Assembly (NCBI GenBank): GCA_016214755.1
Contig: JACRNX010000040.1
Coordinates: forward strand, 1-52,653
Reading direction: 5' to 3'
From: Candidatus Falkowiibacteriota bacterium
GTDB lineage: Bacteria; Patescibacteriota; Patescibacteriia; UBA11705; JABHMO01
DNA length: 52,653 nucleotides
Shown: piece after piece, positions 3,373 to 51,825 of the stretch
Position numbering within the stretch: position 1 is the stretch's first letter
How the letters are laid out: each line of letters starts with the position of its first letter
Made by a program: the position numbers and the translations under genes
Notes under the pieces: model-generated
Seen by the model: the letters and a program-made list of their open reading frames with translations, nothing else
What the model was told of the DNA's origin: nothing
Databases searched by the model: none

Positions 3373-3409
3373 ATTTCTATTTTAACTAAGGGCTAAATTT
3401 ATTTCACTT

Positions 3410-3567
3410 AATGCGGCGGCTGATCCGACGTGGCGGACGGGAGCAGCTTGCTGCGGCCGACAGAACATGTCGGATAGCCAGAGTTGGACGATGTCGCTTG
3501 GCGACAGAGGACAACTCTGAGCGGTAGCCGCCGCATTGGACAAAATACGCGAAGCGATTTTGTCCAA
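3410..3567. repeat. 158-bp multi-stem palindromic repeat, copy 2
   Basis: same length and near-identical to 2661-2818. Confidence 0.85.
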
Positions 3568-3574
3568 CTCGTTA

Positions 3575-9743: not shown

Positions 9744-9953
9744 TATGGACATCACATTATGAAAACGCACTCCATAAATAGTAAAAATCGCGATCCGCTT
9801 GTTTTTCGCGGAAAAAATTTTCATCGTAGCTATGGCTACGACTCAAATTTTTTCACGCTCCAAAACTTCGCCGCTCATCGATTTTTTCTTATTTCTTAGT
9901 GCGTTTTTTTTTCTTATTTCTTAGTGCGTTTTCATCATAATGTGATGTCCATA
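9744..9953. mobile_element. MITE-like element, copy 1
   Basis: 28-bp TIR TATGGACATCACATTATGAAAACGCACT/AGTGCGTTTTCATCATAATGTGATGTCCATA (right arm carries a CAT duplication); about 180-bp unit repeated at 16063-16244. Confidence 0.85.
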
Positions 9954-16062: not shown

Positions 16063-16244
16063 TATGGACAGCACATTATGAAAACGCACTCCATAAATAG
16101 CAAAAATCGCGATCCGCTTGTTTTTCGCGGAAAAAATTTTCATCGTAGCGACGGCTACGACTCAAATTTTTTCACGCTCCAAAACTTCGCAGCTCATCGA
16201 TTTTTTCTTATTTCTTAGTGCGTTTTCATAATGTGATGTCCATA
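16063..16244. mobile_element. MITE-like element, copy 2
   Basis: same TIRs and interior as 9744-9953. Confidence 0.85.
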
Positions 16245-17991: not shown

Positions 17992-18047
17992 AGCTATTTT
18001 AATGATATAGGAAGTTAAATAAAAAGGCAATATCTCGTCTTTCGTCA

Positions 18048-18231
18048 TTGCGAGGAGCGCGGCGACGAAGCAATCCCAGCGTTTATAGTATCGAGATTGC
18101 TTCGTCGTATAACTCCTCGCAATGACGGGGGCGCTGCGCTCCTCGCAATGACGGGAGAGTGTATTGCGCGTTTCGTGTTCTTTTTGCTCGCAATGACGGG
18201 AGAGTGTATTGCGCGTTTCGTGTTCTTTTTG
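18048..18231. repeat. family A palindromic repeat (TCATTGCGAGGAG.../...CTCCTCGCAATGA) with 45-bp tandem duplication
   Basis: GTCATTGCGAGGAGCGCGGCGACGAAGCAATC...GATTGCTTCGTCG...CTCCTCGCAATGAC; exact repeats 18142-18186 and 18187-18231. Confidence 0.9.
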
Positions 18232-25636: not shown

Positions 25637-25748
25637 CCCTTTGTCATGGTTCGAGAGCCTCACCATGACAAGCATCCTCGGCGTGACAGAATCCTCGCGT
25701 GAAGAAAGTCGCTCCCTTTGTCACCCTGAGGCTCTCGAAGGGTGACAG
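25637..25748. repeat. family B palindromic repeats
   Basis: TTTGTCATGGT-TCGAGAGCCTC-ACCATGACA and TTTGTCACCCT-GAGGCTCTCGA-AGGGTGACA. Confidence 0.85.
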
Positions 25749-25764
25749 GAAATTATGCCAGTGT

Positions 25765-26064
25765 ATGAAATATTATTATGTTTATATTGCTCAATGTTCA
25801 GATAAAAGTTATTATATTGGCGTTACGAATGATTTAAACAGGCGAGAAGCAGAACATAATTCAGAATTTCTTCTCTGCCGTAGTTATACATATAGAAAAC
25901 GACCGGTAAAAATTATTTATTGGGAGGAGTTTGTAGACATAAATGAAGCAATTCGTCGGGAAAAACAGATTAAAAGATGGTCGCGGAAGAAAAAAGAAGC
26001 ATTAATAAAAAAGAATTTTGAAAAGCTACCGAAATTATCTGAAAGGAAAATTTTAAATAGGTGA
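25765..26064 (+). CDS. stand-alone GIY-YIG nuclease domain protein
   Basis: MKYYYVYIAQCSDKSYYIGVTNDLNRREAEHN...INEAIRREKQIKRWSRKKKEALI. Confidence 0.92.
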   Translation: MKYYYVYIAQCSDKSYYIGVTNDLNRREAEHNSEFLLCRSYTYRKRPVKIIYWEEFVDINEAIRREKQIKRWSRKKKEALIKKNFEKLPKLSERKILNR

Positions 26065-26073
26065 CAATTTATC

Positions 26074-26110
26074 TTTTTGTCATGGTTCGAGAGCCTCACC
26101 ATGACAAAAA
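26074..26110. repeat. family B palindromic repeat
   Basis: TTTTTGTCATGGT-TCGAGAGCCTC-ACCATGACAAAAA. Confidence 0.9.
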
Positions 26111-29082: not shown

Positions 29083-29178
29083 GTCATGGTTCGAGAGCCT
29101 CACCATGACAAAAGGCACGCTCTTTGTCACCCTGAGGCCTGTACTGAGTTTATCGAAGTGCACTCGAAGGGTGACAAA
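29083..29178. repeat. family B palindromic repeats
   Basis: GTCATGGTTCGAGAGCCTCACCATGACA plus TTTGTCACCCTGAGGCCTG...CGAAGGGTGACAAA. Confidence 0.85.
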
Positions 29179-31739: not shown

Positions 31740-31893
31740 ATTGCTGCGCTCCTGCGGGGCTCGCAATGACGGGGACTATAGTCTCGAGATTGCTTCCCCC
31801 GCCGTTGGCGGGGTCGCAATGACGGGAGCGCTCCTCGCAATGACGGTGGCGTATACGTCATTGCGAGGAGTTAGACGACGAAGCAATCTCGTC
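31740..31893. repeat. family A palindromic repeats (several copies)
   Basis: CTCGCAATGACGG, CTCGAGATTGCTTCCCCCGCCGTTGGCGGGGTCGCAATGAC, CGTCATTGCGAGGAGTTAGACGACGAAGCAATCTCG. Confidence 0.9.
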
Positions 31894-31911: not shown

Positions 31912-32211
31912 ATGTTCAATAAGTATTATTATGTTTATATCATGACAAATAAATTAAGCACGGTTTTATATGTTGGTGTTACGAATGATTTAAAAAGAAG
32001 AGTTTGGGAACACAAAAGTAAATTTAATGATAAGTCCTTTACTACTAAGTACAACATTTGCAAGTTGGTATATTATGAAATTTATGAGTCGCCGCGGGAC
32101 GCAATCGGGAGAGAGAAGCAAATGAAGGGCGGTTCTAGAAAAGACAAAATTGATCTGATAAAAAAGGGAAATGAGGGCTTTGCTGACATGTCTAAGGAGT
32201 GGTATTTGTGA
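31912..32211 (+). CDS. stand-alone GIY-YIG nuclease domain protein
   Basis: MFNKYYYVYIMTNKLSTVLYVGVTNDLKRRVWEHKSK...AIGREKQMKGGSRKDKIDLI. Confidence 0.92.
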   Translation: MFNKYYYVYIMTNKLSTVLYVGVTNDLKRRVWEHKSKFNDKSFTTKYNICKLVYYEIYESPRDAIGREKQMKGGSRKDKIDLIKKGNEGFADMSKEWYL

Positions 32212-32227: not shown

Positions 32228-32362
32228 ACGTCATTGCGAGGAGCCCCTACGTCCGTCGGGGCGACCCTTCGACGGGCTCAGGGTAAACTCCGCAATCCCG
32301 AATCTATAGGTTCGAGATTGCTTCCCCCGCCGTTGGCGGGGTCGCAATGACGGAGGGGGGCG
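32228..32362. repeat. family A palindromic repeat with family B fragment nested inside
   Basis: CGTCATTGCGAGGAGCCCC...CCCTTCGACGGGCTCAGGGTAAACTC...TTCGAGATTGCTTCCCCCGCCGTTGGCGGGGTCGCAATGACGG. Confidence 0.85.
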
Positions 32363-50106: not shown

Positions 50107-51675
<1,569 letters not shown>

Positions 51676-51715: not shown

Positions 51716-51825
51716 TTGATAAATCGTTTTCGTTTTTAGCGAATGGGCCCTTTCAAATCGTTGCCGAGCGGCGGCTTCGCCGCCGCGAGGCTCCATCTTC
51801 AAACTTGCAAAATCCCAACTGGCGG
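51716..51825. repeat. 110-bp inverted repeat, right arm
   Basis: TTGATAAATCG...CCCAACTGGCGG, reverse complement of 50203-50312. Confidence 0.9.

Follow-up and report, generated by a model that had tools for sequence, protein, structure and literature searches.

Stand-alone GIY-YIG nuclease genes are bracketed by tagged palindromic repeats in many phyla and may drive the dispersal of these repeats

In a 52,653-nucleotide contig of a Candidatus Falkowiibacteriota bacterium (JACRNX010000040.1, the whole of which is referred to here as the window), a gene for a small stand-alone GIY-YIG nuclease lies between inverted copies of a short palindromic repeat. The first-pass annotation of the window had described a gene of about 100 codons in this setting, and we found that it encodes 99 residues and has repeat copies on both sides. 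Genes of the same clade are bracketed by tagged hairpins in many phyla, far beyond what chance would produce, and we regard it as nearly certain that gene and repeat belong together. We further think it fairly probable that the nuclease is a dedicated factor spreading these repeats, which it would cleave and mobilise in a dispersal system resembling that of REP sequences and RAYT proteins.

The window corresponds to contig C35 of a 1.09-Mb genome in 71 contigs, which contains two genes of this subfamily (gene 1 and gene 2, both in the window) and no third. Gene 1 runs from an ATG at 25765 to a stop codon at 26062–26064, and its product is made up of one GIY-YIG domain (PF01541, E 3e-16). The two proteins, which are 46% identical, scored 59.8 and 56.1 bits for PF01541, compared with a curated cut-off of 22.6. 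In an alignment of 23 GIY-YIG sequences, Tyr7, Tyr17, Arg27, His31 and Glu66 were invariant, and the catalytic residues expected of this family (two Tyr, Arg, Glu) were all present as Y7, Y17, R27 and E66. By domain match and conserved residues, both genes belong to the GIY-YIG nuclease family, and nuclease activity is predicted for their products. The AlphaFold2 model of the gene 1 protein (pLDDT 77.8) had UPF0213 proteins (1ZG2, 1YWL) as its nearest solved folds, followed by Slx1, a nuclease that cuts branched DNA. Such a modelled Slx1-like fold would be compatible with the recognition of extruded hairpins.

The palindrome around gene 1, family B, reads GTCAnnnTGAG-N5-CGAAnnnTGAC on one strand, with GCTCT as the loop in the window and TGG/CCA or CCC/GGG at the nnn/nnn positions. 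The first-pass annotation had listed TTTGTCATGGT..ACCATGACAAA and TTTGTCACCCT..AGGGTGACA as separate forms. Both are present near gene 1, but their loops are identical and their stems compensate, so the division into two families was rejected in favour of one family with different stems. Pattern searches found 55 exact copies in the genome, or 69 when a slightly looser ending was allowed, and the reversed control pattern had no match there. The free stem positions covaried: pairing held in 94.4% of cells, 35 cells were double-changed, and none of 500 shuffles was equally good. As DNA hairpins, single copies folded at -8.5 to -10.2 kcal/mol, with z scores from -3.9 to -6.1.

Family B also occurs in doublets. 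In the part of the genome that was examined, 15 pairs of copies were less than 130 bp apart, and in all 15 the halves lay on opposite strands and had unlike stems; heterodimers are known among CGTC repeats as well (PMC3733652). Gene 1, between a CCC copy on the plus strand and a TGG copy on the minus strand, has the arrangement of a gene-less doublet with a gene inside. The doublet upstream of gene 1 recurs as a whole on contig C25, where the two sequences were 94.5% identical over 109 bp, shared the 50-bp spacer, and lost homology at the outer TGTCA/TGACA; a compensatory stem pair accounts for two of their differences.

Gene 2 had been said to have the same layout with another repeat family. 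Family A palindromes (ATTGCGAG..CGAAGCAAT) were indeed found on both flanks, but the downstream copy at 32230 is interrupted. In this genome, the tags of family A doublets pointed outward in seven of seven cases.

Table 1. Nuclease genes and palindromic repeats in the window.
Feature	Position	Strand	Remarks
Gene-less family A doublet	18046..18124	.	Tags outward, 19-bp spacer
Upstream doublet of gene 1 (TGG, 50-bp spacer, CCC)	25640..25748	.	Dispersed whole copy at G000:C25:58579-58683
Family B palindrome, TGG/CCA stem	25643..25669	-	Outer half of upstream doublet; pattern match; DNA fold -9.7 kcal/mol
Family B palindrome, CCC/GGG stem	25720..25746	+	Ends 18 bp before start codon of gene 1; pattern match, fold
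GIY-YIG nuclease gene 1	25765..26064	+	99 aa; clade tied to TGAG/CGAA (family B) palindrome; nuclease activity predicted
Family B palindrome, TGG/CCA stem	26079..26105	-	14 bp past stop of gene 1; pattern match; fold -10.2 kcal/mol
Extra family B copy	29083..29109	-	3 kb downstream of gene 1; pattern match
Family A palindrome (CGTCATTGCGAG..CGAAGCAATC)	31856..31889	+	Upstream of gene 2
GIY-YIG nuclease gene 2	31912..32211	+	99 aa, other clade; PF01541 E 4.5e-15 on 31921-32196; nuclease activity predicted
Family A palindrome	32230..32300	+	Downstream of gene 2; interrupted by degenerate B-like palindrome; read directly in sequence
Variant family A palindrome	32304..32353	-	Downstream of gene 2; repeat family D16; second copy at 31776-31825, 96%

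To compare the surroundings of such genes, we used a hairpin detector that required a GTC tag and an A-led stem of length 6 or more and took no account of the two window families. GIY-YIG relatives were detected at E 1e-4 in 48 of 55 related genomes searched, and 60 large loci together with the window gave a set of 69 genes. In this set, hairpin density was 1.36 per kb at distances of up to 150 bp from the gene and about 0.1 per kb beyond 500 bp. Across 80 loci from many phyla in a bacterial and archaeal genome collection, the corresponding values were 4.74 and about 0.17 per kb, which makes GTC-tagged, A-led hairpins about 30 times denser near the nuclease clade than farther off, with a possible bias in that the query alignment was partly picked from genes already known to be flanked. 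Ten control combinations of tag and base were flat in both sets. Hairpins bracketed 35 of 75 GIY-YIG genes on both sides within 150 bp (46.7%), compared with 17 of 956 other genes at the same loci (1.8%, P 2e-31).

A replicate set was obtained with a single query in an independent collection, by protein search of plasmid records, some of which, judged by size, resemble mis-filed chromosomes. Among its 35 records, 14 were read, and the hairpin density was 3.39 near the gene and 0.39 per kb away from it. Genes flanked on both sides were found in Azospirillum lipoferum, Neisseria gonorrhoeae (where the repeat is CGTC-1), Shinella, Rhizobium, Aeromonas, Sphingobium and Neorhizobium. With the strict detector, several of the 14 records had no flanking hairpin, e.g. 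Sinorhizobium meliloti and Novosphingobium; in Planktothrix, repeats of the GTCATTCTGAG type were present that the detector missed. On plasmid AZO_p3 of A. lipoferum 4B (L281), the GIY-YIG gene and CGTC repeats lie between sufB and sufC, the gene apparently having been inserted into the conserved suf operon.

Most of the repeats flanking these genes across phyla were TGTCATTCCCGCGAAAGCGGGAATCCAG and its variants, which are textbook CGTC-tagged REPs. This superfamily, one of two such large groups among bacterial palindromic repeats, is characterised by a CGTC or TGTC tag, an 8–9 bp stem starting with AT, a loop of 4–5 bases, a CCA tail and inverted dimers; its agent of spreading was left open, as no transposase gene was found flanked by the repeats and a dedicated transposase was lacking (Di Nocera, De Gregorio, Rocco 2013, PMC3733652). 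The same paper equates CGTC-1 with dRS3 and does not mention GIY-YIG proteins. In the 80 loci and the replicate set, most flanking repeats fit the tag, the A-led stem, the loop and the CCA-like tail of the superfamily, and they likewise form inverted dimers with outward tags and common heterodimers. Families A and B of the window keep the tag and the inverted doublets, but family B ends in GAC rather than CCA, and family A has an outer stem of only 5 bp. In family B (e.g. at 25720–25746), TGAG..CGAA could give tandem sheared G.A pairs plus one G-C pair around a 5-base loop, in which case family B would be a 5-base-loop relative of the CGTC repeats. In the open-licence PMC literature we found no paper linking GIY-YIG proteins with REPs, although an earlier report elsewhere is possible; one study does no more than count a GIY-YIG gene among horizontal transfers out of Patescibacteria (PMC12455944).

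The tags of inverted dimers usually point outward, around the gene and in gene-less doublets alike. Where hairpins lay on both sides of a nuclease gene, 32 of 45 cases had a plus-strand copy before and a minus-strand copy after it, and the same order was found in 33 of 48 gene-less doublets away from nuclease genes. Repeats on the two sides of the same gene were more similar to each other (0.880) than shuffled partners were (0.743, sd 0.015). In one genome, two loci on separate contigs (L085 and L092) were 91% identical over 511 bp, from the outer GTC upstream to the outer GAC downstream, and shared no sequence outside this unit in 15–20 kb. Within the unit, they differ in a 45-bp stretch directly before the start codon, and no target-site duplication was seen at the boundaries. 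A second pair of units within one genome (L067/L071) has family A repeats at its ends. In Flavivirga sp. 57AJ16 (L163, 9322–10861), three units of about 503 bp, each a REP, a GIY-YIG gene and a REP, stand in tandem, and a stop codon breaks two of the three genes.

The type of repeat correlates with the clade of the nuclease. On a tree of 139 proteins (100 columns, with many open forks, so that the count of label changes alone was used), the repeat-type label changed 20 times, whereas 200 shuffles of the labels averaged 40 changes and never fell below 35. The TGAG/CGAA type flanks seven of eight members of the clade of gene 1, while the tree neighbours of gene 2 have mostly family A or 4-base loops. 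All six relatives that carry the gene 1 clade also have family B, as against 5 of the remaining 49 (P 1.6e-5, host phylogeny partly controlled). The first-pass annotation had named random placement of repeats, or a lack of correlation between protein clade and repeat family, as grounds for giving up its reading of a nuclease-driven repeat-dispersal system; the bracketing frequencies and the tree show neither, and this reading is supported, with cleavage of the hairpins and their dispersal as its conjectural part.

At the genome level, repeats were found to depend on the gene. Among 380 genomes of the phylum, CGTC-1 occurred in 62 of the 102 that have the nuclease clade and in 15 of the 278 that lack it (OR 27, P 1e-29; P 6e-18 when collapsed to families). 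All 19 genomes with at least eight CGTC-1 copies had the nuclease, and 15 genomes had CGTC-1 copies but no nuclease gene.

We propose that the nuclease recognises a tagged hairpin (GTC tag, stem and characteristic loop) extruded in single-stranded or cruciform DNA, and that it would cut at the tags. The unit would consist of two inverted copies: with the nuclease gene inside it would be the autonomous form, and with only a short spacer it would be the non-autonomous doublet that fills the genome. GIY-YIG enzymes hydrolyse DNA and, to our knowledge, form no covalent intermediate of the transposase type; for this reason, we suggest that host replication or repair would copy the cut unit elsewhere to give new copies. 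Each nuclease clade would serve its own loop family, so that one genome could hold two genes and two families. In favour of this proposal we count the bracketing and its orientation, the tag-bounded units dispersed with and without a gene, the match of clade and repeat family, the CGTC-1 counts across genomes, the range of states at the orthologous Bradyrhizobium site described below, and purifying selection on the gene. We counted against dispersal by the nuclease that gene and repeat can separate, that many clade members have no detected hairpin, that CGTC-1 occurs in 15 genomes lacking the gene, that the repeat type around one Bradyrhizobium gene changes, that L085/L092 showed no target-site duplication, and that we know of no strand-joining step in GIY-YIG chemistry.

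The main rival, which we consider unlikely, is a homing-type gene: a selfish nuclease gene would cut pre-existing palindromes, abundant, harmless and made by other means, and be copied into them by repair. GIY-YIG is a classic fold of homing endonucleases, and some alleles at an orthologous site in Bradyrhizobium are what homing would give. We compared the intergenic site of locus L139 across 30 Bradyrhizobium species. Among its states were no repeat in L233 and L256, one doublet in L242, L248, L249 and L250, and a doublet-gene-doublet arrangement in others (e.g. L230, L236–L239, L247, L251, L252); the latter two states could arise by homing or by recombinational loss. In L232 the gene lies between single repeats of another type, L231 and others have a gene-less doublet of a different family, and in L258 a remnant of the gene persists beside a doublet. 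From species to species, the repeat families around this gene differ although its site is the same (L139, L145, L183), a variation that homing would also allow. Since the flanking families differ at one site, it is the repeats that are exchanged while the gene stays in place; its inheritance is largely vertical although the repeat type changes, and the specificity of nuclease for repeat is therefore not absolute. A clear empty site with a target duplication was seen neither here nor for L085/L092. Three observations speak against homing: the copied unit of L085/L092 carries its own outer tags, the gene-less doublet on C25 was dispersed together with its spacer, and 263 of the 278 genomes without the gene also lacked CGTC-1. 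Together these results indicate that the repeats depend on the gene and not the reverse.

A housekeeping role appears less probable still. A structure-specific nuclease might process cruciforms formed by the repeats and so protect replication, with the nearby repeats being regulatory or tolerated. The branched-DNA cutter Slx1, as the next structural match of the model after UPF0213, would suit such a role, and the nuclease gene is under strong purifying selection, since dN/dS among intact genes at the Bradyrhizobium site was about 0.05. However, the gene is patchy and present in multiple copies (subfamily-wide, up to 11 matches in one genome), is sometimes tandem and broken, decays in place (L258), and lies inside a conserved operon in Azospirillum, all of which is the behaviour of a mobile element.

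It is very improbable that an IS200/RAYT-type tyrosine transposase spreads the repeats and that the GIY-YIG gene is a bystander. The genome of the window has two full-length Y1_Tnp matches plus fragments, mostly at contig ends, and Y1_Tnp was weakly correlated with CGTC-1 in the 380 genomes (OR 3). When the tables were stratified, this correlation vanished among genomes with the nuclease and among those without it (P 0.39 and 0.42). The association with the nuclease persisted within either Y1_Tnp class (OR 24–25), and we rejected the RAYT-type enzyme as the driver. The family B copy nearest to a Y1_Tnp match in the own genome is at least 376 bp away, and in the work of Di Nocera et al. (PMC3733652), too, CGTC repeats were not found to flank any gene for a tyrosine transposase. 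The IS200-like Y1_Tnp matches lie at the ends of contigs C2, C4, C30, C31, C67 and C70, which suggests that the assembly breaks at an IS200-like element. Finally, that small mobile genes and repeats, both intergenic, merely pile up where insertion is harmless is hardly credible and, barring an unseen bias common to the controls, was rejected, as the density ratio was still 7 in intergenic space only (4.80 vs 0.68 hairpins per kb, P 6e-40), other short genes at the same loci were bracketed in 2.8% of cases compared with 46.7% for GIY-YIG genes, and the strict detector found no hairpin up to 400 bp from any of 25 sister-clade GIY-YIG genes in the relatives' loci, UPF0213-like ones included (three of them gave a loose family-B motif call only).

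The nearest known parallel to dispersal by the nuclease is the REPIN/RAYT system, which likewise combines short palindromes carrying a tag, dispersal in the form of inverted doublets, a gene with the same palindrome on its flanks, several gene/repeat pairs per genome and selection that maintains the gene (Bertels and Rainey 2011, PMC3116915). There the enzyme is an HUH tyrosine transposase and the tag is GTAG (PMC3116915); here it is a GIY-YIG nuclease, with no conditional association of Y1_Tnp, and the tag is GTC with an A-led stem. The RAYT-REP comparison in the first-pass annotation holds for the architecture (inverted doublets, a gene between repeats, tag-bounded units), whereas enzyme and tag differ. 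GIY-YIG homing endonucleases of the I-TevI type and free-standing homing genes resemble gene 1 in catalytic fold and as small mobile genes, but gene 1 has no intron, encodes 99 residues without a separate DNA-binding domain, and is a free-standing reading frame between intact inverted hairpins that does not interrupt a recognition site. UPF0213/YhbQ-like proteins (1ZG2, 1YWL) and Slx1 share the fold and are the nearest solved structures. By the strict detector, however, no hairpins accompany the UPF0213-like and other sister genes of these genomes, and Slx1 is a eukaryotic protein that works with Slx4.

The GIY-YIG family is the best candidate for the missing mover of the CGTC REP superfamily, and with it a small, testable enzyme family with clade-by-clade repeat specificity can be named. 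A broader proposal seems to us possible, at somewhat short of an even chance: a separate class of mobile elements in many phyla, in which a hydrolytic GIY-YIG nuclease of 90–100 residues alone would spread short tagged hairpins by way of host repair. Such a class would stand beside RAYT-REPIN as its non-homologous counterpart, and CGTC REPs, including dRS3 of Neisseria and many alphaproteobacterial repeats, would originate from it. If the nuclease is confirmed as the mover, the dispersal of short palindromes arose on two or more occasions from unrelated enzymes, many proteins annotated only as 'GIY-YIG nuclease family protein' would gain a function, and hairpin-specific small nucleases might be used as tools.

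The window contains further repeats. The two arms of a 110-nt inverted repeat, at 50203–50312 and 51716–51825, show 99% complementarity across a gap of 1.4 kb and resemble the termini of an insertion element, and long direct repeats were found at 2651–2819 and 3400–3568 (169 nt, 92%) and at 9744–9907 and 16063–16226 (164 nt, 97%).
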